This document shows positions 48,690-61,623 of a DNA stretch of 64,000 nucleotides, one piece after another; position 1 is the first letter of the stretch; every line of letters starts with the position of its first letter. The translations under genes and the position numbers were made by a program. The notes beneath the pieces were generated by a model. The model saw only the letters and a list, made by a program, of their open reading frames with translations. It was not told the DNA's origin and did not search any database. Origin of the DNA: Phycisphaerae bacterium (GTDB lineage Bacteria; Planctomycetota; Phycisphaerae; Sedimentisphaerales; Anaerobacaceae); contig JAQTLP010000002.1 of the NCBI GenBank assembly GCA_028714855.1, forward strand, positions 1 to 64,000, in the 5' to 3' direction.

Positions 48690-48895
48690 AAAAACAAGCT
48701 GTGATTGTGAAAGAGTATTGTATGGGCATTAAAGATTATCAACAGTTTGTTTTGAAAGGGTGGAAAAATGGAAACTGTAAAAAGACTGACAATTTGTTTT
48801 CTGGTATTGGGCCTTTCGGCCTATTCAGTGCAATCAGCCGGCGCGGAGCCGATGGGGACGGCGTTTATCTATCAGGAGCAACTCTACGATTATAA
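48686..48895 (+). CDS. Second micro-ORF overlapping the fibre gene start (69 aa)
   Basis: AAAAGGAGGCGAGG precedes the ATG. The first 27 codons lie upstream of the fibre gene and the rest overlaps it out of frame, so only the N-terminal portion (MKKQAVIVKEYCMGIKDYQQ and onwards) could be specific. More likely a translated leader than a separate protein. Confidence 0.35.
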   Translation: MKKQAVIVKEYCMGIKDYQQFVLKGWKNGNCKKTDNLFSGIGPFGLFSAISRRGADGDGVYLSGATLRL

Positions 48896-50285
48896 TTATC
48901 CTGCCGACAGCAATTATGATTTTCGGTTCACGCTGTATGATGCAAATAGCTACGGCAACCAAATAGGTGATGACGTGAACGTGGCTGATGTGAATGTAAT
49001 CGATGGTTACTTTGCAGTTAAACTGGACTTTGGGGACGATGCGTTCGATGGCGATGCTCGCTGGATAGGGATTGGTATTCGGCCGAGTGAGCAGAATGAC
49101 CCCAACGGCTATGCCGTCCTTGAGCCAAGGATGGAAGTGATGCCTACGCCGTATGCGCTTTATGCAAAGAGTAACGCGGGCAGTGATAACGACTGGATGG
49201 TCTCGGGGAACGATATGTATTCAATCCCCTCAGGCAATGTCGGCATCGGGACTACAAACCCTGTCTCCAAGCTGAGTGTCAACGGAGACATCAGAGCGGC
49301 TTCCGTTTACAAGATAGGCGGCAGCACGGTCCTGTCAGTTCCAAACTCGAATACGCTCGTAGGTGTTGGTGCTGGTCGGGATACCACAGGCAATTACAAC
49401 ACATTCTCAGGATGCCTGGCAGGCTTCCGCAACACGGCGGGCGGTGGAAACACATTCCTGGGATATATGACGGGATTTTTAAACGACACAGGGAATGGAA
49501 ACACATTCTCAGGATATCAGGCGGGCAACTCCAACAAGACAGGCAATTACAATACATTCTCAGGATATCAGGCAGGATATAAAAGCACAGGTTCTGGAAA
49601 TGTCTTCATTGGGCACAAAGCGGGATACAACAACGAAACCGGCTCGGGCAAACTCTACATCGCCAATTCAGATATTAATCCCCCTTTGATTTATGGCGAT
49701 TTCAGCACCGGCAACGTCGGCATCGGGACAACGGAGCCGGGAGCAAAATTAGAGGTGGCAGGACAGATTAAGATTGCCGGCGGCACTCCGGGAATAGATA
49801 AGGTTCTCACATCTGATGCCAGCGGTCTTGCAACTTGGCAACCGATCCCTGATTCAGGCATACCTTCAGGAGTTATTGTGATGTGGTCAGGATCAATAGA
49901 CAGTATCCCGACTGACTGGGTTCTTTGCGACGGCAAAAATGGTACGCCTGATTTAAGAGAAAGGTTTATTGTAGGTGCAGGCGGAGATAATCCTGACGTG
50001 AATGGTCCCACCGATGGTTACTCGCCTGGGGCACATGGCTGTGATGATCAATGGAAACATAAGTTAACCGAAGCCGAAATGCCAGCACATACACATACAT
50101 ATACATACACGACGTATTATACTCTAGCTGATAATGTTAAACGTGATGGTGGAGAAGGGTATTGGAGATATACGAATTCTGCTGGTGGAACAACGTCGAG
50201 TGTAGGTGGAAACCCTGACGGCAGCACCCAGCCACATGAGAACAGGCCGCCGTATTATGCGTTGGCGTATATTATGAAACTGTAA
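48768..50285 (+). CDS. Secreted fibre protein with phage tail-collar-like C-terminus
   Basis: 505 residues. A signal peptide (about 1-26) is followed by a beta domain (GTAFIYQEQLYDYNYPADSN and FRFTLYDAN). A glycine-rich repeat region (about 205-290; units like GNYNTFSGYQAG and GSGNVFIGHKAG) is probably a left-handed beta-roll. The C-terminus resembles phage tail-collar domains: VIVMWSGSIDSIPTDWVLCDG, TPDLRERFIVGAG, AEMPAHTHTYT and NRPPYYALAYIMKL. NVGIGTT motifs occur twice. It is probably a trimeric surface fibre. It is not in a prophage: no phage genes are adjacent. Confidence 0.82.
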   Translation: METVKRLTICFLVLGLSAYSVQSAGAEPMGTAFIYQEQLYDYNYPADSNYDFRFTLYDANSYGNQIGDDVNVADVNVIDGYFAVKLDFGDDAFDGDARWIGIGIRPSEQNDPNGYAVLEPRMEVMPTPYALYAKSNAGSDNDWMVSGNDMYSIPSGNVGIGTTNPVSKLSVNGDIRAASVYKIGGSTVLSVPNSNTLVGVGAGRDTTGNYNTFSGCLAGFRNTAGGGNTFLGYMTGFLNDTGNGNTFSGYQAGNSNKTGNYNTFSGYQAGYKSTGSGNVFIGHKAGYNNETGSGKLYIANSDINPPLIYGDFSTGNVGIGTTEPGAKLEVAGQIKIAGGTPGIDKVLTSDASGLATWQPIPDSGIPSGVIVMWSGSIDSIPTDWVLCDGKNGTPDLRERFIVGAGGDNPDVNGPTDGYSPGAHGCDDQWKHKLTEAEMPAHTHTYTYTTYYTLADNVKRDGGEGYWRYTNSAGGTTSSVGGNPDGSTQPHENRPPYYALAYIMKL

Positions 50286-50802: not shown

Positions 50803-50829
50803 TTGTTAATAAACCAATAAGGAGGTAAA

Positions 50830-53800
50830 ATGATGAAAAGTGTAACACACTCCAAGGGAGCTATCGTTTCAATAACAATCTTAGTAACCATCCTTTGTCT
50901 TAGCCAGCCGGCGTTTCCCGCTGACCGTGTAGCGGGTAATATGATGCTGATAAACGATAACGGCGGATGGTGCTGGTATCAGGACGACAAGGTTGTTTAC
51001 GATCCTGTCGGGCGCAATGTCCTCGTGAGCACGGCGGCGGAAGAGCATGGTTTCGGCGGAGTCAGCGGAACACGCCTCAATGATATGGATGCCACTACAT
51101 TTAATATCGACACAGGGACGCGGACGCGGACACTTGCGCACGAGTTCGGCGGCGACGACCATAATATGGGGGCATTCTGGATACGGCCTGACGGCAGGTA
51201 TCTGCATATATATTGTCAACATTACAATGACCCGCAGGTAACCTACCTGCGCCTGGCCGACAACCCGCACGACGGAAGCAGCTGGGGCAGCGAGTACACC
51301 TATAACTGGGAGACCATCAGCGGCCTGACTGATACTCAGTCCAGCAGTTATACCAATGTTTACTATCTTTCCGGCGAGGGAACCCCCGGAGTTGGACGAT
51401 TGTATAATATCATTCGAGTATTTACGCGAACTCCTTGCATCTCTTACTCGGACGACCTGGGCCAAACGTGGCAGTATATGGGGCAGCTTTGCAGTCCGGC
51501 AGGAGGTTCGACTTATTCCAATTTCTATCACAAGTTCAGAAGCAACGGCGTTGACCGGATAGACTTTATAGGCGTTGAGAACCACCCGCGTGACAACAAT
51601 AACAATGTCTATCACGGCTATATCAAGAACGGCAAGAGCTACAACTCTTACGGGGTTGTAGTAGACGACAACCTTTACGACCAGAGCGCTCCCTCCGTGC
51701 AGGCATTTACGCCGATATTTATCGCTGATACGACTATAGACGCCGATTCATATCACACAGGCTGGAGTAATGAGATGGAGCTTGATAAAGACGGGCATCC
51801 TGTTTGCCTGTATCAGACCCGCCACGGCACAGAGCCATGGGGTAACAACAGCGGCAGCTGGGGCAACATCGGCGCTGCAGACCACCGTTTCTTTTACGCA
51901 CGTTTCAACGGCTCAACCTGGACTTCTACAGAGTTATGCAAAATGGGTGGAGGGCTTCACCTGCCCGAACAGGATTACATCGGCATGGGCTGTATTCATC
52001 CTGACGACGCCAACATTGTCTATGTCGCAACACAGTTCGACCCTCGCGACGATTCAGAAAATGAGTATCGTGAGATATTCAAAGGCGTGACTTCTGATAA
52101 CGGCTCGACGTGGAACTGGACACAACTCACATTCGATTCAACAATTAATAATACCCGTCCGGCAGTTCCTCAATGGGACGCCGACAATACAGCGGTTGTC
52201 TGGACAAGAGGTAATTGGGGACAGGACAATTATGAAGATTATGACCTTGTAGCTGTTGGAATGATAGAGGAAAAAGATGCGACACTAGGTTTAGTCAATT
52301 ATATCGACGCCGGCACGAGCAATACAACAGAGTCAGACGGTTCGGCATTTTCGCCGACCGGTCCGAGCGGCAGCGCAGGGACAGCGGACAGCCAGTGGCA
52401 CGAATACACAGGATACGGCAACGGAGGAAGCTGTTTCACGGCCGGTGACGGCGGGACGGAAAACGTTCCAACGATAAAGACCACAATAACAGGTTTGTCA
52501 GACGGGACGTATGACGTGTTCGCATACTTCTGGTGCGACCCTGCCCAGGACTGGGGAATAAGAGGCGGATTTGCATCTGATGTGGATAGTATGCTGTGCT
52601 TCAGCAGGCAATCGGCTCAATTTGCCGAGGCATCGCAATTCTCCGGTTCTGTAACAGTTACGGGTACCGGGGTCCAGCTTTACCGGGTTTATATCGGCCG
52701 CAAGACAGTGAGCGGAGGCACGCCGGTCGTTGTTTATCTTGATAACTACGACAGTGTTTACAATTCCAATGCACCTACCCGCACGACATACGACGGGGTT
52801 GGAGTGGCCAGCATCAGCTATGTGGAAGATGTTAGCCCGCCTGAGCCGAATGTTATGACATGGGCTTCTGTGCCTACGACAACGGGCCCAAGTACAATTA
52901 CAATGACTGCAACGACGGCTACGGACACCAGCCCGCCGGTGCAGTATTACTTCGAATGCACCACTGACGGCGACGCTAATAGTGATTGGCAGACAAATCC
53001 GACCTACGTTGCTACAGGTTTGACGCCGAGCACTGAATATTCATTCAGGGTCAAGGCACGCGACAGTTCTGCGGCCCAGAATGAGACGGGCTGGTCGAGC
53101 ACACAGTCTGCAACAACCGACTCGCCGGACACAACGCCGCCTACGCCTGACCCGATGACATGGGCGACGGTGCCGACGGCAACAGGGGCGTATTCGATCA
53201 CGATGACGGCGAGTACCGCCACGGATGTCTGCAGTCCTCCCGTGCAGTATTACTTCGAATGCACTACCAACGGCAGCAAAACAAGCGGGTGGCAGACGAG
53301 CGCAACTTATTCACCGAGCAGCCTTAATCCATCAACTTCATATTCATTCAGGGTCAAGGCACGCGACAGCGCCGCCGCCCTTAATGAGACGGGCTGGTCG
53401 AGCACACAATCAGCAACTACGCAGGCACAGCCTACAAACATCACACTGCTCGGTTCGTGGGTGACTGGCTTATCTCATACAAAAGAATCAGGCAGTAACC
53501 GTGCTTTGATATTCATCGCACATGGTGAACGCTCCGGTACAATGAACCTAACCGCTGTAACATACGGCGGGCAATCAATGACAAAGGTCGTTGACAGGTA
53601 CTACTATTCCGGAAACGGCGCTTATGCCGCAGCATATATTCTTAAAGAGGCTGGTGTTGCCGCCGCAACCAACAGTAATTTTGTTGTTACCTGGGATACT
53701 ACGCCGACGGAAGTTAAATACGCCAGCGTATTCCTTTCTAACGTTAATCAAACAACCTCTACCGGAGCAACCGGCTACGGTGAAGGTACAAGCAACCCAG

Positions 53801-56800
53801 TAACGACCCCTGCACTTGCAACAAACAGCGGCGATATGGTTCTTCTCGGGGCCACCTGCGGCAACTTAGGCACATATACAATGAACAACAGCTTTACTTT
53901 AGGTGTTAATCAGTCCTCCACTTCGTCTACCGGGGCAACCGGTTATAAATCTGCTACCGGAGCATCTGAAACGCCCAGTGCAACACATAGCAGCTTGAAC
54001 CGCCAGGTGCTTATCGGCTTCGTAGTTCAGGGAGGAACACCTCCTCCATTGAATATTGCCAGTAATCCGTATCCGGCTAACGGGGCAAGTAATGTTTCTA
54101 TTTCCACCAGTTTATCGTGGGATGCTCCTACAGCATATACGCCGACCAGCTACGATGTTTACTTCGGAACCGACACTACTGCTCACAATAATCCTAAATA
54201 CACAGTTGGTACGAATAGTTACGACCCGCCCGACGACCTTTTAGAAGGGACAACATATTACTGGGCGGTCGATTCGAACAACGCAGGGACGATATATACC
54301 GGCGATGACTGGAGTTTTACGACTTATGAACCAATAGAGATTGGTGACCTCGTGGCAAATTATATATTAAGCCAGACGCTTTCAACATATTATGCATCCG
54401 CTTGTTCATACTATGGAGTGATGATATATTCTGAAGTAACAGGGGATACCGATCTCAAGAATAGCGTCATTGCAGCTTTCCCTTCTACTTATTACACAGG
54501 TGCAACACTGCCGCCGGAAGGCAGCGTAGACGAAAATATCTACGGGATACTTCCATTTGAGCTATACCGCCAGACGGGCGATGCCAACTATCTTACATCG
54601 GCACAATATTTAGCTGACGAGGAATTTAATCCTCCACGTACTGACGGTCTGAGCGAATACTCACGATTCTGGGTAGATGATTTGTATATGATTGGTTCAC
54701 TTCAGGCCCAGGCATATAAGTCCACAGGAGATCCTAATTATGCCAACCGTGCTGTTACCCAACTTTTGGGGTATATGGGAGAGGTGGAACAGTTACAACA
54801 GTCTAACGGTCTTTTTCATCATACCCTAAGCGCTCCATTTTTCTGGGGACGAGGTAATGGCTGGGCAGCAGCGGCTATGACAGAGGTCCTTTTGAGTATT
54901 CCAGAAGACCACCCGGATCGCGCACAGTTGCTTACTAAATATCAGAACATGATGGCCGGCTTGGTTGCGTGCCAGGGTCCGAGCGGGATGTGGTATCAGG
55001 TTCTTGATATGGGCAGTGACCCGCGCAACTGGTATGAATCATCTTGTACAGGTATGTTTGTCTTCGCACTGGCAACAGGAGTAGAAAAAGGATGGCTTCC
55101 TGAGGTTCCATATAAGCAGGCCGCTTTGGATGGATGGGCCGCACTGGCAAATTATGTGGACGAACAAGGTCGTGTTTTACAAGTCTGTCCAGGAACAGGT
55201 GCAAGCTCCGATGTGGCGGTTTACTTAAACAAGGTACCGGATAATACTGGCAATCCTCATGGTCAAGCAGCGGTTATCTGGGCAGCGAAAGCAATGGAAT
55301 CTACGCCCAGCGACACAACACCTCCTGCGCCCGACCCGATGACATGGTCCTCGGTTCCTGCGGCAACAGGACAGACTACAATTACGATGACCGCGACGAC
55401 CGCTACAGATGCCAATAGTCCACCGGTAGAATATTACTTCGAATGCACTAATGACGGCAGCAAGAGCAGCAGCTGGCAGACAAATCCGACATATGTTGCT
55501 TCCGGTCTTAACGCGGGTACTTTGTATTCATTCAGGGTCATGGCACGTGACAGCGCTACCACCCCGAACGAGACGGGCTGGTCGAGCACACAATCCGCGA
55601 CCACCGATCCGCCTACACCTGATACAACACCTCCGACACCCGACCCGATGACCTGGGCAACGACACCAACAGCAACGGGCTCGAGCACAATTACAATGAC
55701 TGCGACGACCGCCACCGATAGTGAAAGTCCGCCGGTAGAATACTACTTCGAATGCACTAATGACGGCAGCAAGAGCAGCGGCTGGCAGACAAGTGCAACA
55801 TACGCAGCTTCAGGTCTAACCCCGGACACTCTTTATTCATTCAGAGTCAGGGCACGTGACAGCGCTACCACCCCGAACGAGACGGGCTGGTCGAGCACAC
55901 TATCCGCTACCACCAATCCTACACCCGATACAACACCTCCTGCGCCCGACCCGATGACATGGTCCTCGGTTCCTGCGGCAACAGGACAGACTACAATTAC
56001 GATGACCGCGACGACCGCTACAGATGCCAATAGTCCACCGGTAGAATATTACTTCGAATGCACTAATGACGGCAGCAAGAGCAGCAGCTGGCAGACAAAT
56101 CCGACATATGTTGCTTCCGGTCTTAACGCGGGTACTTTGTATTCATTCAGGGTCATGGCACGTGACAGCGCTACCACCCCGAACGAGACGGGCTGGTCGA
56201 GCACACAATCCGCGACCACCGATCCGCCTACACCTGATACAACACCTCCGACACCCGACCCGATGACCTGGGCAACGACACCAACAGCAACGGGCTCGAG
56301 CACAATTACAATGACTGCGACGACCGCCACCGATAGTGAAAGTCCGCCGGTAGAATACTACTTCGAATGCACTAATGACGGCAGCAAGAGCAGCGGCTGG
56401 CAGACAAGTGCAACATACGCAGCTTCAGGTCTAACCCCGGACACTCTTTATTCATTCAGAGTCAGGGCACGTGACAGCGCTACCACCCCGAACGAGACGG
56501 GCTGGTCGAGCACACTATCTGCAACTACCGACTCGGCGCCCAGCGTATCCATTGACCTTGTAGCCGGTAATATGATGCTGATAAACGATAACGGCGGGTG
56601 GTGCTGGTATCAAGACGATAAGATTGCTTACGACCCCACTGCCGGCAATATCCTCACGAGTACCGCTGCAGAAGAGAACGGTTTCGGCGGAGTCGGCGGA
56701 GCAAGATTAAATGATATGGATACCACTACATTTAACATAGCCACAGGAAAGCGCACGGTGAGACAAGCGCGTGATTCCGGCGGCGGCGACGACCATAATA

Positions 56801-59800
56801 TGGGCGCCTTCTGGATAAGGCCTGACGGCAGGTATCTGCATTTGTATGCACCGCATTACAGTTCTTCAGGTCAAACCTTCTACCGTCTGGCGACCTATGC
56901 GAATGACGGCAGCGTCTGGGGCAGTGAGCAAAACTATGACTGGGATACTATCAGCGGCATTAGCGGGGGCACGCTTTCTTATACGAATGTTCACTACCTT
57001 TCGGGCGAGGGGACCGGCAACGGCCGATTGTATAATATCGTGCGCTGGAATGAGGTCACTCCTAACATTTCTTATTCGGACGACCTTGGCGTTACGTGGC
57101 AATATATGGGCAGACTTAACAGTCCCGTAGGAGGCGCGACTTATTCCAACTTTTATCACAAATTCAGGGGCAACGGGGTTGATCGGATAGACTTTATCGG
57201 TTGTGAGCAGCATCCTCGCAATTACAATAATAGTGTCTTTCACGGCTATATCAAGGGAGGGAAGGGATACGACTCTTACGGTAATGTAGTAGATGACGAT
57301 CTTTTCGACACGGATGCTCCCTCCATACAAGCATATACGCCGGTATTTACTGCTGCTGATCCGCAGTTAGCCGACACATATCATACAGGTTGGACTAATG
57401 AAATTGAGATAGACAAAGACGGTTATCCGGTTTGCCTGTATCAGACCCGCTACGGAACGGACCCATGGGGTAACGGCAGCGGCCAGAATACCATCGGTGC
57501 GGCGGACCACCGTTTCTTCTATGCACGTTTCAACGGCACCGCGTGGACTTCTACAGAGCTATGCAAAATGGGAACCGGGCTTCATGAGCCTGAACAGGAC
57601 TACCTCCCAATGGGCTGCATACATCCTGATGATGCCAACATAGTTTATGTCGGAACACCCTTTGATCCTCGTGACGATTCGCCGCTCGAGCACATTGAGA
57701 TTTTCAAGGGTGTAACGAGCGACAAAGGTCTAACCTGGGACTGGACACAAATTACAACCAATTCAACAGAAGATAATATCCGTCCTGCTATTCCCAAATG
57801 GAACGCCAACAACACGGCGGTCTTCTGGACGAGGGGTGAATATCCCGGCCAGGAAAACTACGACTTTGTAGTTGTGGGAATGCTTGAGGAGCAGGACATG
57901 ACATTGGGTTTAGTCAATTATATTGATGCGACCGAGAGTAACACCGAAGAGTCGGGCGGTTTGCCGTTTACACCGACGGGCCCAAGCGGCAGTGCCGGTT
58001 CTGCCGATAACGAGTGGCACGAATACACAGGCTACGGCAACGGAGGCAGCTGTTATACAGCCGGCGACGGCGGAACCGAAAACGTTCCCACGATAAAGAC
58101 AACAATAACCGGTCTGGCAGACGGGACGTATGACGTGTTCGCATATTTCTGGTGCGACCCGGCCCAGGACTGGGGCGTGAGGGGCGGCTTTGAATCAGAT
58201 GTGGATAGTATGCTGTGCTTCAACAAGCAATCCTCTCAGCACGCAGAGGCATCTCAATTCTCCGGTTCGGTCGACGTTGTTAACGGCGACTACATTCTTT
58301 ATCGCGTTTATATCGGCCGAAAGGAAATAAGCGGAGGCGGTTCGATTGATGTTTATCTTGACAACTATGACAGTTCTTATACTACTAATATACCAACCCG
58401 CACAACGTATGACGGTGTCGGAGTAGCCAGTGTTTCCTATATTGAAGACGTTACGCCGCCTGAGCCGAACGCTATGACATGGGCTTCTCTACCTAGTGCA
58501 ACCGGTCCGATGACAATTACAATGACGTCAACCACAGCTGTAGATGACAGCCCGCCCGTGCAGTATTATTTCGAATGCACCACCGACGGTGACGCTAACA
58601 GCGGCTGGCAAACAAATCCGACATATGTGGCTTCAGGTCTAAACCCGAGCACTCTATATTCATTCCGGGTCAAGGCACGTGACAGTTCGCCTGCCCAGAA
58701 TGAGACGGGGTGGTCAAGCACACAATCAGCAACGACTGATCCACCTGATACTACACCGCCGACGCCTGACCCGATGACGTGGTCTTCGACGCCAACGGCG
58801 ACAGGACAGACTACAATCACTATGACTGCAACAACTGCTGCTGACAGTGAGAGTCCGCCGGTGCAGTACTACTTCGAGTGCACTAACGACGGAAGCAAGA
58901 GCAGTAGTTGGCAATCGAGCACGACATACGTTGCCTCCGGTCTCAACGCGGGCACTTTATATTCGTTCAGGGTCAAGGCACGCGACAGCGCCACGGCTCA
59001 GAATGAGACGGACTGGTCTACAGAGGAATCTGCAACAACCGACCTTCCGGATACAGTACCGCCGACACCTGACCCGATGACGTGGTCTTCAGTGCCAACG
59101 GCGACAGGTTCGAGCACAATCACGATGACAGCATCGACTGCTACGGATGCGGATAGTCCGCCTGTTGAGTATTATTTCGAATGCACCAATGATGGCACCA
59201 AAACCAGCGGCTGGCAGTCAGGTACGACATACGTCGCTTCAGGCCTGACGCCGAGCACTTTGTATTCGTTCAGGGTCAAGGCACGCGACAGTTATCTTAT
59301 TCCCAATGAGACAGGCTGGTCGAGCACGCTATCAGCAACTACCGACCTGCCTCCGACAGATATTGAAATCCTCGGCTCGTGGGCGACAGGTTTATCCCAT
59401 GCAAAAGAAGCCGGCAACAGCCGGGCTTTGATTTTCATTGCTCATGAAGAATCTGCCAGTGGTCTTGACCCAAGTTTGACTTCCGTAACATACGGCGGGC
59501 AGGCAATGACCAAGGTTATTGAAAGGAGTGCCGTCACCACTGGCTACGGGAATTACGTTGCGGCATTTATACTCGACGAAGCCGGCGTAGCTGCTGCGAA
59601 CAGCGGCACGTTTACTCCCACCTGGAGCGCTTCGACGAGTTCTATCTCGTATGCAAGTGTATTCCTTTCCAATGTTGACCAGACAACTTCCATAGGAGAA
59701 TCCGCAAGCAATGGAACGACAAGCGGTACGGACCCAATCTCGACAAGTCCGCTTGCTACAAATGACGGGGATATGGTTATTCTCGGTGCGACCAACGCTA

Positions 59801-61623
59801 ATAACGGCTCATATACATTAGGCGGCGGCTTTACAGAAGGGACCGACCAGTCGGTTGGGACTAGTGGGCACACAGGTGTAACCGGCTACAAGTCCGCAAC
59901 GGGCGCAGCCGAGACACCAAGCGCAGATCACTCGAGCACAGTTACCCGTCAGGTTATTATTGGATTTGTGCTCCAAGCTTTGTCAGGCGGCGGACCTGTT
60001 ACCCGGACGCTGGCGGTTTCTTCTTCAGCGGGCGGCACAGTAACCACGCCCGGCATAGGTGACTTCGACTACACGAACGGTACCAACGCAAGTATCGTTG
60101 CGTCTGCTAACGCCAATTATCATTTCGTGAACTGGACGGGCACCGCGGTAACGGCAGGCAAAGTAGCCAGCCCGACTTCGGCCAGTACCACTGTTTTAAT
60201 GGATGCATCTTATAATGTGGTAGCCAACTTCGCTATAGACACATTCACTCTTGATTACGCGGCAGGCGCGGGCGGAAGCCTGACAGGCGATACCTCACAG
60301 GTGGTCAATTACGGCGGCAATGGAACTGCTGTAACAGCGGTACATAATATCGGCTACCACTTTGTCAACTGGAGTGATTTATCTACGGACAATCCGAGAA
60401 CAGACCTGAATGTAACAGCCAATATAAACGTAACGGCCAACTTCGCTATTGACCAGTATACGGTCTCCGCTTCAGCGGGCACCAACGGCAGTATCGTTCC
60501 TTGGGGCGATGTCACGATAAACTACGGAGGCAACCAGATGTTCACGGCCAACGCGGACCTGGGTTATGAGGTCGACGAGTGGACTGTGGACGGCAATCAG
60601 GTCCAATCCGGAGGGACTACCTATACAATATATAACGTCACGAGCAACCATACAGTAGCCGTGACATTCAACCAGATTATCCTCTCGATTTCCGGCTATG
60701 TGGTAGAGCAGGACGGCAGTACGCCGGTCGAAGGGGTGCTGATGGAGACAGGCGATGTTAATACTTTAACCAACGCCGACGGCTTCTACGAACTGCCGGT
60801 CAATTACGGCTGGTCGGGCCAAGTCACTCCTTATAAAGAAGGATATATCTTCGCGCCGGACAGCACTATATATACCAATGTCACACAGAACCAGAGCAGT
60901 GACGATTACACAGCGACACTGATAACCTTCAGGATTGCGGGCATTGTGCTTGCCGACGACTATATCACGCCCCTGAGCGATGTAAACGTATCGGCCGAAA
61001 ACGGCGGCGGGCCGTGGACAAGCAGATACGGCGGCGGGGCAACGCTGACGGACGCAGACGGCTATTATGAAATCGTTGTGGACTACAACTGGTCGGGCAA
61101 TGTCACGCCCGCCAAAGAGGCCTACGTCTTCGCGCCGAACAACAGAAGCTATGCAAACGTAAAAGAGGACTGGATGACGGACCAAAGCTACACCGGGACT
61201 CTGCTGACTTATAAGATCAGCGGTTACATAAAGAACGAATGCGACGAGCCAATAGAAGGGGTTATGGTCGATGCCAACAACGGCGGCAACCAAGATACGA
61301 CCGATTCAACCGGCTTATATGAGGTATGGGTCGATAGTTTCTGGTCCGGAACGGTAACACCGCACAAGCAACATTACATATTTGACCCGAACCAGATGGA
61401 TTATTCTAATGTACAGGCAGATATAGCCAACCAGAACTACGCCGCATATAACGTTTATGACCTCGATTGCGACGGCTTAATCGGCTGGGGCGACGTCGGC
61501 GTAATGGCTGATAACTGGCTGTCGAGCGGCCCTGACATTCCGGGTGATTTATACAAGGATGAATACAACATTGTCGATTTCCTGGATTTTGCCGAATTCG
61601 GTTCAGTCTGGCTGGCAAATTAA
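50830..61623 (+). CDS. Giant secreted multi-domain carbohydrate-active protein (BNR_4 x2, GH105-like)
   Basis: 3597 residues with a signal peptide (1-31). Domains in order: BNR_4 propeller (32-480; NDNGGWCWYQDDK, DDHNMGAFWIRPDGRYLH); X1 (485-665); two FN3 (668-865); X2 (870-1070); FN3-like (1075-1165); GH105-like alpha barrel (1170-1490; RFWVDDLYMIG with the catalytic-type Asp, FFWGRGNGWAAAAM); four FN3 (1494-1903); BNR_4 (1908-2350); X1 (2356-2540); three FN3 (2541-2840); X2 (2843-3054); three InlB-like repeats (3058-3284; YHFVNW); three carboxypeptidase-regulatory-like domains (3286-3537); dockerin-like tail with DLDCDGLIGWGDV. BNR_4 folds occur in ulvan-type polysaccharide lyases and GH105 removes unsaturated uronyl ends, so one chain may both cut and trim an acidic polysaccharide (inference). 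Confidence 0.9.
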   Translation: MMKSVTHSKGAIVSITILVTILCLSQPAFPADRVAGNMMLINDNGGWCWYQDDKVVYDPVGRNVLVSTAAEEHGFGGVSGTRLNDMDATTFNIDTGTRTRTLAHEFGGDDHNMGAFWIRPDGRYLHIYCQHYNDPQVTYLRLADNPHDGSSWGSEYTYNWETISGLTDTQSSSYTNVYYLSGEGTPGVGRLYNIIRVFTRTPCISYSDDLGQTWQYMGQLCSPAGGSTYSNFYHKFRSNGVDRIDFIGVENHPRDNNNNVYHGYIKNGKSYNSYGVVVDDNLYDQSAPSVQAFTPIFIADTTIDADSYHTGWSNEMELDKDGHPVCLYQTRHGTEPWGNNSGSWGNIGAADHRFFYARFNGSTWTSTELCKMGGGLHLPEQDYIGMGCIHPDDANIVYVATQFDPRDDSENEYREIFKGVTSDNGSTWNWTQLTFDSTINNTRPAVPQWDADNTAVVWTRGNWGQDNYEDYDLVAVGMIEEKDATLGLVNYIDAGTSNTTESDGSAFSPTGPSGSAGTADSQWHEYTGYGNGGSCFTAGDGGTENVPTIKTTITGLSDGTYDVFAYFWCDPAQDWGIRGGFASDVDSMLCFSRQSAQFAEASQFSGSVTVTGTGVQLYRVYIGRKTVSGGTPVVVYLDNYDSVYNSNAPTRTTYDGVGVASISYVEDVSPPEPNVMTWASVPTTTGPSTITMTATTATDTSPPVQYYFECTTDGDANSDWQTNPTYVATGLTPSTEYSFRVKARDSSAAQNETGWSSTQSATTDSPDTTPPTPDPMTWATVPTATGAYSITMTASTATDVCSPPVQYYFECTTNGSKTSGWQTSATYSPSSLNPSTSYSFRVKARDSAAALNETGWSSTQSATTQAQPTNITLLGSWVTGLSHTKESGSNRALIFIAHGERSGTMNLTAVTYGGQSMTKVVDRYYYSGNGAYAAAYILKEAGVAAATNSNFVVTWDTTPTEVKYASVFLSNVNQTTSTGATGYGEGTSNPVTTPALATNSGDMVLLGATCGNLGTYTMNNSFTLGVNQSSTSSTGATGYKSATGASETPSATHSSLNRQVLIGFVVQGGTPPPLNIASNPYPANGASNVSISTSLSWDAPTAYTPTSYDVYFGTDTTAHNNPKYTVGTNSYDPPDDLLEGTTYYWAVDSNNAGTIYTGDDWSFTTYEPIEIGDLVANYILSQTLSTYYASACSYYGVMIYSEVTGDTDLKNSVIAAFPSTYYTGATLPPEGSVDENIYGILPFELYRQTGDANYLTSAQYLADEEFNPPRTDGLSEYSRFWVDDLYMIGSLQAQAYKSTGDPNYANRAVTQLLGYMGEVEQLQQSNGLFHHTLSAPFFWGRGNGWAAAAMTEVLLSIPEDHPDRAQLLTKYQNMMAGLVACQGPSGMWYQVLDMGSDPRNWYESSCTGMFVFALATGVEKGWLPEVPYKQAALDGWAALANYVDEQGRVLQVCPGTGASSDVAVYLNKVPDNTGNPHGQAAVIWAAKAMESTPSDTTPPAPDPMTWSSVPAATGQTTITMTATTATDANSPPVEYYFECTNDGSKSSSWQTNPTYVASGLNAGTLYSFRVMARDSATTPNETGWSSTQSATTDPPTPDTTPPTPDPMTWATTPTATGSSTITMTATTATDSESPPVEYYFECTNDGSKSSGWQTSATYAASGLTPDTLYSFRVRARDSATTPNETGWSSTLSATTNPTPDTTPPAPDPMTWSSVPAATGQTTITMTATTATDANSPPVEYYFECTNDGSKSSSWQTNPTYVASGLNAGTLYSFRVMARDSATTPNETGWSSTQSATTDPPTPDTTPPTPDPMTWATTPTATGSSTITMTATTATDSESPPVEYYFECTNDGSKSSGWQTSATYAASGLTPDTLYSFRVRARDSATTPNETGWSSTLSATTDSAPSVSIDLVAGNMMLINDNGGWCWYQDDKIAYDPTAGNILTSTAAEENGFGGVGGARLNDMDTTTFNIATGKRTVRQARDSGGGDDHNMGAFWIRPDGRYLHLYAPHYSSSGQTFYRLATYANDGSVWGSEQNYDWDTISGISGGTLSYTNVHYLSGEGTGNGRLYNIVRWNEVTPNISYSDDLGVTWQYMGRLNSPVGGATYSNFYHKFRGNGVDRIDFIGCEQHPRNYNNSVFHGYIKGGKGYDSYGNVVDDDLFDTDAPSIQAYTPVFTAADPQLADTYHTGWTNEIEIDKDGYPVCLYQTRYGTDPWGNGSGQNTIGAADHRFFYARFNGTAWTSTELCKMGTGLHEPEQDYLPMGCIHPDDANIVYVGTPFDPRDDSPLEHIEIFKGVTSDKGLTWDWTQITTNSTEDNIRPAIPKWNANNTAVFWTRGEYPGQENYDFVVVGMLEEQDMTLGLVNYIDATESNTEESGGLPFTPTGPSGSAGSADNEWHEYTGYGNGGSCYTAGDGGTENVPTIKTTITGLADGTYDVFAYFWCDPAQDWGVRGGFESDVDSMLCFNKQSSQHAEASQFSGSVDVVNGDYILYRVYIGRKEISGGGSIDVYLDNYDSSYTTNIPTRTTYDGVGVASVSYIEDVTPPEPNAMTWASLPSATGPMTITMTSTTAVDDSPPVQYYFECTTDGDANSGWQTNPTYVASGLNPSTLYSFRVKARDSSPAQNETGWSSTQSATTDPPDTTPPTPDPMTWSSTPTATGQTTITMTATTAADSESPPVQYYFECTNDGSKSSSWQSSTTYVASGLNAGTLYSFRVKARDSATAQNETDWSTEESATTDLPDTVPPTPDPMTWSSVPTATGSSTITMTASTATDADSPPVEYYFECTNDGTKTSGWQSGTTYVASGLTPSTLYSFRVKARDSYLIPNETGWSSTLSATTDLPPTDIEILGSWATGLSHAKEAGNSRALIFIAHEESASGLDPSLTSVTYGGQAMTKVIERSAVTTGYGNYVAAFILDEAGVAAANSGTFTPTWSASTSSISYASVFLSNVDQTTSIGESASNGTTSGTDPISTSPLATNDGDMVILGATNANNGSYTLGGGFTEGTDQSVGTSGHTGVTGYKSATGAAETPSADHSSTVTRQVIIGFVLQALSGGGPVTRTLAVSSSAGGTVTTPGIGDFDYTNGTNASIVASANANYHFVNWTGTAVTAGKVASPTSASTTVLMDASYNVVANFAIDTFTLDYAAGAGGSLTGDTSQVVNYGGNGTAVTAVHNIGYHFVNWSDLSTDNPRTDLNVTANINVTANFAIDQYTVSASAGTNGSIVPWGDVTINYGGNQMFTANADLGYEVDEWTVDGNQVQSGGTTYTIYNVTSNHTVAVTFNQIILSISGYVVEQDGSTPVEGVLMETGDVNTLTNADGFYELPVNYGWSGQVTPYKEGYIFAPDSTIYTNVTQNQSSDDYTATLITFRIAGIVLADDYITPLSDVNVSAENGGGPWTSRYGGGATLTDADGYYEIVVDYNWSGNVTPAKEAYVFAPNNRSYANVKEDWMTDQSYTGTLLTYKISGYIKNECDEPIEGVMVDANNGGNQDTTDSTGLYEVWVDSFWSGTVTPHKQHYIFDPNQMDYSNVQADIANQNYAAYNVYDLDCDGLIGWGDVGVMADNWLSSGPDIPGDLYKDEYNIVDFLDFAEFGSVWLAN
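55315..56519 (+). repeat. Tandem 615-bp duplication of an FN3 pair
   Basis: 55315-55904 and 55930-56519 appear identical at the nucleotide level, period 615 bp (205 codons, two FN3 domains). The reading frame is kept. It is a recent expansion within the giant gene, or possibly an assembly artefact. Confidence 0.85.

Follow-up and report, generated by a model that had tools for sequence, protein, structure and literature searches.

Two lyase-type propellers and a GH105 barrel in one 3597-residue secreted protein of a Phycisphaerae bacterium: a probable two-step uronic-acid enzyme

Introduction

In a stretch of 64,000 nucleotides from a Phycisphaerae bacterium (GenBank assembly GCA_028714855.1, contig JAQTLP010000002.1; hereafter the window), one very long open reading frame had been described from its sequence alone as a secreted protein with two ulvan-lyase-type propellers on either side of a GH105-like barrel, which might carry out consecutive steps on one molecule. 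This locus raises the question of whether such a chain has what both reactions need, whether the two modules belong together elsewhere, and how the giant form came about. We find it likely that the protein is a secreted two-step uronic-acid enzyme in which propeller lyases and a GH105 hydrolase are held in one giant polypeptide.

Domain layout and genomic setting

The coordinates and the length of 3597 residues were exact, the frame was uninterrupted from a signal-peptide-like start, and the domain order, with two propellers flanking a GH105-like barrel, was confirmed by sequence, Pfam and a structure model (Table 1). The repeated motif of the propellers, DDHNMGAFWIRPDGRYLH, is present twice (residues 109 and 1987), and the RFWVDD motif of the barrel was found at residue 1279. 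The host genome measures 2.31 Mb and is 98% complete. The frame is flanked by tig-clpP-clpP and a histidine kinase gene, and no PUL context was found around it, the neighbours being housekeeping genes. Upstream and on the same strand, positions 48768-50285 encode a 505-aa secreted-looking protein whose repeats are of the GNVGIGTT/tail-fibre-like kind and which matches a phage tail collar domain weakly, below the cut-off. The LLGSW domain, which occurs twice in the 3597-residue protein, has no Pfam match.

Table 1. Features of the giant gene, with positions counted from the first letter of the window
Feature	Positions	Strand	Residues	Basis
Whole ORF, 3597-aa secreted multidomain protein	50830..61623	+		ORF coordinates and length checked, exact
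Ribosome-binding site GGAGGT	50821..50826	+		Sequence; 3 nt before ATG
Signal-peptide-like N-terminus	50830..50922	+	1-31	Inferred from sequence
Propeller 1, lyase-type	50926..52275	+	33-482; D109, H111, H131, Y174, R196, Y233	AF2 model, Foldseek, alignment to PL25 5uam, residue map
CBM35/CBM6-like beta-sandwich domain 1	52285..52836	+	486-669	AF2 model, Foldseek
Two fibronectin type III repeats	52837..53427	+		Pfam, sequence
LLGSW domain copy 1, about 200 aa, type unassigned	53431..54039	+	868-1070	Sequence
Ig/FN3-like spacer preceding barrel	54040..54327	+		Sequence; common to the C5 and C13 proteins of the own genome and to G401
GH105 (Pfam Glyco_hydro_88) barrel	54391..55299	+	1188-1490; D1234, D1283, H1331, R1341	Pfam, alignment
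Four fibronectin type III repeats	55300..56532	+		Repeat scan, sequence
Propeller 2, lyase-type	56560..57906	+	~1911-2358; D1987, H1989, H2009, Y2051, R2072, Y2109	Alignment, residue map
CBM35/CBM6-like domain 2	57904..58455	+	2359-2542	79% identity to copy 1
Three fibronectin type III repeats	58456..59346	+		Pfam, repeat scan, sequence
LLGSW domain copy 2	59356..59985	+		Sequence
Three InlB B-type repeats (Flg_new_2)	59998..60678	+		Pfam
Three carboxypeptidase-regulatory-like repeats	60679..61446	+		Weak Pfam matches, sequence
Dockerin-like C-terminal tail	61456..61620	+		Sequence, by eye

Fold and family of the propellers

The label BNR_4 that had been given to the propellers holds for the fold and for the family, but not as a direct Pfam assignment of either copy: PF15892 (BNR_4) was not matched by the 3597-residue protein at E<=1, nor by any protein of the genome at 1e-3, and 20 of the 24 propellers in the family alignment do match it (best 8e-43). 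Using phmmer, propeller 1 had no match among PDB chains at E<=1, and a phmmer route through the related locus L019, tried beside the direct propeller searches, was rejected. Relatives were gathered from whole genomes into a first alignment (A1), whose profile matched sialidases only, via Asp-box repeats; a sialidase identity was accordingly discarded as repeat similarity. The profile of a set of 48 propellers (A3) finds the PL25 structure 5uam (E 7.8e-7), which pairwise searches do not reach, and that of a divergent subset (A2) finds GH145 (E 2e-10).

The AF2 model of propeller 1 (pLDDT 89, pTM 0.91) matched the seven-bladed propeller fold of PL25 in Foldseek. The top PDB matches were PL25 5uam, in first place (4.5e-12), PL42 7esk, GH145 5mvh/5mul/5mum and PL24 6byt, the last of these families being a fold match with no sequence match, and lectin propellers stood lower down the list. 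These structural matches, with an A3 profile that reaches PL25, bear out the proposed ulvan-lyase-type fold, at an identity to PL25 of about 13% in the fold alignment. Propellers 1 and 2 share 72% identity with a dN/dS of about 0.2 and are therefore conserved copies. Across propellers and barrel, dN/dS between copies lies at 0.18-0.27, which indicates that both propellers and the barrel are maintained by purifying selection.

Catalytic residues of the propellers

Enzymes of PL24, PL25 and PL42 share an Asp-His-His triad and an Arg (PMC10951650, PMC8377490). In the mechanism described for these folds one His is both the base and the acid and is tuned by the Asp and another His, and the Arg, with Tyr, neutralises the carboxylate (PMC8377490, PMC10951650). 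On the A3 alignment, PL25 residues His123, His143, Tyr188, Arg204 and Tyr246 correspond to His111, His131, Tyr174, Arg196 and Tyr233 of propeller 1, and Asp109 aligns with an Asp two places ahead of His123. The PDB entry 5uas carries Asn at the position of His123, which indicates that this column is correct. Propeller 2 has the same catalytic set, so the His and Arg/Tyr of ulvan lyases, when aligned to the propellers, are conserved in full in both copies. Since the PL25 alignment and the published mechanism use this very set, the Asp-x-His within the DDHNMG motif would be the heart of the active site. In propeller numbering, His79, His99, Arg164 and Tyr201 are invariant in A3 (48/48), Tyr142 is found in 47/48, and Asp77 in at least 90%.

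The closest characterised relative by structure, the PL25 ulvan lyase PLSV_3936 (5uam/5uas), is thus a seven-bladed propeller with the Asp-x-His, second His, Tyr, Arg and Tyr equal in order and place; unlike the propellers studied here, it is not fused to GH105, and only the equivalent of His264 is kept from its zinc site (His208, His264, Cys266, His278), while its Asn122/Lys125 are not kept. The PL42 L-rhamnose-alpha-1,4-D-glucuronate lyase FoRham1 (7esk) shares the fold and, via the PL25 equivalences of PMC8377490 and PMC10951650, the set Asp83-His85-His105, Tyr150, Arg166 and Tyr202, but is a fungal exo-enzyme with no sequence-level match to our propellers. The rhamnose-binding Arg331/Arg333 of PL42/GH145 have no evident counterpart in either propeller in a region where the alignment is unreliable; Glu383, conserved in at least 90% of A3, lies in the region of the PL42 rhamnose-binding Arg331 and Glu381, where the same unreliable alignment maps no Arg. 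As the zinc site, Asn122/Lys125 and the rhamnose-binding Arg lack counterparts, the substrate may differ from those of PL25, PL42 and GH145.

GH145 is among the nearest folds and provides the best profile matches of A2, which would agree with propellers that are hydrolases like BT3686, a posterior-face retaining alpha-L-rhamnosidase, the GH105 barrel then serving other lyases. We regard this as highly unlikely: the stretch aligned to the posterior nucleophile His48 of GH145 (residues 54-71) contains no His in either propeller, and GH145 enzymes are themselves lyases at their anterior site (PMC8406133).

The propellers could also bind rather than cut, being lectins for uronate or the adhesive heads of a surface fibril in which the barrel is the sole enzyme. 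The long FN3/InlB-repeat stalk is a surface-type architecture, two propeller copies would provide avidity, lectin propellers do appear in the Foldseek list, and a survey of fibrillar adhesins (PMC9210967) reportedly mentions BNR_4. The full lyase set is, however, invariant in the 48 propellers, which come from many phyla and mostly from proteins without a long stalk, and we consider a purely binding role unlikely. The propellers represent a widely distributed and apparently uncharacterised lineage in which the lyase active site is complete.

The GH105 barrel

Glyco_hydro_88 (PF07470), the Pfam family that holds GH88 and GH105, matched residues 1188-1490 with an E-value of 3.8e-55 and 187.7 bits against a cut-off of 26.6, and the best PDB relatives of the barrel were the GH105-type structure 3k11 (2e-31) and YteR (1nc5). 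Aligned to YteR (1nc5/2gh4), Asp1283 corresponds to Asp143, which is Asn in PDB entry 2gh4, Asp1234 to Asp88 and His1331 to His189; the equivalent of Arg213 is R1341, placed by the conserved FW-x-R motif. The GH105-like assignment therefore rests on a clear Pfam match with the catalytic Asp kept, and none of the losses that would have spoken against the proposed enzyme, of PL24/PL25-type residues in the propellers or of the GH105 Asp in the barrel, was found.

Pairing of the propeller with GH105 in other genomes

We examined 80 related loci of other species, found by a propeller query alone. Within the DNA fetched, a separate GH105 gene was present in 11 of them; at 10 of these 11 it lay no more than about 1 kb away, mostly with the same orientation. 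One further locus is a propeller-GH105 fusion, giving a GH105 gene or domain in 12/80. At 0.2-1 GH105 per Mb, 0.3-1.3 GH105 neighbours would be expected in 80 loci; the density in the host's order is roughly 0.2 per Mb as estimated from strong matches, and the statistic is generous, CAZyme genes being clustered in general. On plasmids there were just two distant propeller relatives (23%). At one of the loci, in an Ignavibacteriales MAG, a group II intron maturase gene (L040:8744-10066) sits between the GH105-propeller pair and a transporter/arabinofuranosidase cluster.

Fusions of BNR_4, GH105 and DUF4861 occur in other Planctomycetota (L016, L017, L018, L107; L022 without detected DUF4861); by Pfam, L016, L018 and L107 read BNR_4-GH88-DUF4861 and L022 reads BNR_4-GH88. 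Like the protein studied here they place the propeller first in one chain, but they span about 1,140-1,200 aa where complete, have one propeller and no FN3 stalk, and their GH105 belongs to a distant clade with 22-27% identity to our barrel. We found no publication on these fusions, nor on any fusion of BNR_4 or a PL to GH105. The view that the two activities normally reside on separate proteins thus needs qualifying: they are often separate, yet encoded by adjacent genes, and fusions recur in other Planctomycetota. DUF4861, which is fused to or adjoins propeller-GH105 pairs (L016, L018, L107, L050), may contribute a third enzyme or module to this pathway.

In a tree with some open forks, the propeller-associated GH105 barrels fall into three separate clades, so that, with this proviso, the pairing has at least three origins. 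Gene adjacency, recurrent fusions and the three barrel clades support a joint function of the propeller family and GH105, and lend the proposed coupling of a lyase-type propeller to GH105 independent support. Neighbours and fusions of this kind fit a lyase that feeds GH105, which is a further point against propellers that only bind. A two-protein arrangement is known from Bacteroides plebeius, where BpGH105 acts on the unsaturated product of BpGH145 and removes it, and the genes are numbered consecutively (BACPLE00338/00337; PMC8406133). That system resembles ours in that GH105 removes what a propeller lyase makes at its anterior site, and differs from it in being two proteins and in the posterior His48 of GH145, absent from our propellers. 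Propeller lyase and GH105 are hence already known as two proteins; the propeller lineage and the giant fusion are new forms of this, uncharacterised in the literature that we found.

Origin of the giant form and integrity of the assembly

In the same genus (genome G401), a 702-aa protein (L151:1736-3844) consists of a signal peptide, an LLGSW domain, the spacer, GH105 and a tail, and is collinear with residues 864-1490 of the 3597-residue protein (66% over 622 aa); unlike the latter, it has no propeller, and the signal peptide and dockerin-like tail are its own. In the own genome, contig C5 (L153) ends with a GH105-tail protein and contig C13 (L152) begins with a propeller-CBM-tail protein, both N-terminally cut by the contig ends. 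The barrel is 72% identical to the GH105 on C5 and 74% to one from another genome of the genus. As G401, C5 and C13 carry such units separately, the giant protein looks, to judge from the sequences compared, like a string of units for which its genus and its own genome also have separate genes. No second protein of such size and layout was found in overlapping samples of the phylum (392 genomes) and the order (about 160 genomes), and among these genomes the giant form with two propellers was confined to this locus.

The same observations bear on a misassembly, in which separate propeller and GH105 genes would have been merged in repeat-rich FN3 sequence and the giant chain would be partly an artefact. 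Between the barrel and propeller 2, in the FN3 region and outside the catalytic domains, there is an exact tandem repeat of 590 nt (55315-55904 = 55930-56519), by which the second FN3 pair repeats the first; it stems from a very recent duplication or from the assembly itself. Where C5 and C13 are cut, inside two related genes (GH105 and propeller), both contigs carry the same 127 nt in one orientation, a pattern typical of an assembly with k=127 that broke at a common repeat. The stand-alone GH105 of the same genus and the lack of a giant-form relative in the searched genomes point the same way. Against this stand an uninterrupted 10.8-kb frame with start and stop and domains that follow one another without a break. 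In an assembly graph, the flanks of a tandem repeat that has a single entry and a single exit can be joined in only one way, and from propeller 1 to the barrel the repeat scan found no long exact repeat. We judge a merging of this kind improbable, and treat the chain as one protein made of joined units.

Accessory domains and clues to the substrate

CBM-like domain 1 (AF2 model, pLDDT 92) gave weak matches to CBM35 and CBM6 folds in Foldseek, CBM35-type at E 2e-4 and TM 0.47-0.61. The uronate complexes 2vzr and 2w47 are among the CBM35 structures listed, which fits a uronate reading and proves nothing. A CBM-like domain directly follows the propeller in 19/80 related loci. This 180-aa CBM35/CBM6-like domain is without a Pfam family, stands N-terminal to the propeller in L026 and L113, and occurs in other large proteins too.

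Dockerin_1 was absent from the Pfam matches of the 3597-residue protein (E<=1), and its tail is not among the 31 matches of the genome; dockerin-like tails are found on other proteins of this genome as well. The tail had been taken as a sign of complex assembly, a claim that we drop: cohesin (PF00963) had 0 matches in the host genome, and the tail is therefore no evidence for a cellulosome, a reading that we reject.

Since PL25 leads both the structural and the profile matches, the enzyme might be specific for ulvan, as the PL24/PL25 comparison first suggested. The 98%-complete genome, however, has one sulfatase and no match to a GH78 (alpha-L-rhamnosidase) domain, the substrate-binding and zinc residues of PL25 are not kept, and the neighbours of related propeller loci, though mixed, include GH43, alpha-L-arabinofuranosidase and glucuronyl esterase, which suggest plant-type glycans. 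Ulvan specificity is thus very improbable in our view, and ulvan is just one of several possible substrates. Because the PL25 zinc and substrate residues and the rhamnose-binding Arg were not found, there is no ground for taking either ulvan or Rha-GlcA caps as the substrate. A derivation of the substrate from gene context was given up, with housekeeping neighbours in the window and mixed ones in the relatives. Beside the C13 propeller paralogue, and convergent with it, lies a GH10 gene (L152:2315-3547), which does not fit a lyase substrate.

Proposed two-step mechanism

In the mechanism that we favour, the two propellers would belong to the PL25/PL42/GH145 superfamily and act as lyases by beta-elimination. 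The carboxylate of a 4-O-substituted uronic acid would be bound and neutralised by Arg196 together with His131, Tyr174 and Tyr233, and His111, tuned by Asp109 and His131, would take the C5 proton and donate one to the leaving sugar, so that the non-reducing end created by elimination would be a 4,5-unsaturated uronic acid. Through Asp1283, the GH105 barrel of the same chain would then hydrate and remove this unsaturated uronate, and the CBM-like domains and FN3 repeats may bind substrate and space the modules. Of the earlier idea of consecutive steps on one molecule, the catalytic sets that are kept and the recurrent pairing with GH105 stand; the chemistry and the order of its steps on one molecule, the roles of the accessory domains and the identity of the sugar we infer.

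More broadly, and more tentatively, the propellers may constitute a new multi-phylum PL family that became linked to GH105, as a neighbouring gene or by fusion, in at least three independent events, with its extreme form here, two lyases and a hydrolase on one surface stalk for the two-step processing of an acidic glycan; we hold this wider reading to be possible, at somewhat less than even chances. For enzymologists, the propeller lineage and its recurrent partner say what to assay, namely an increase in absorbance at 235 nm and its loss on treatment with GH105, and the 3597-residue protein is a natural fused enzyme candidate for acidic plant or algal glycans. For the origin of giant Planctomycetota proteins, it would be a case of whole single-gene units joined end to end.
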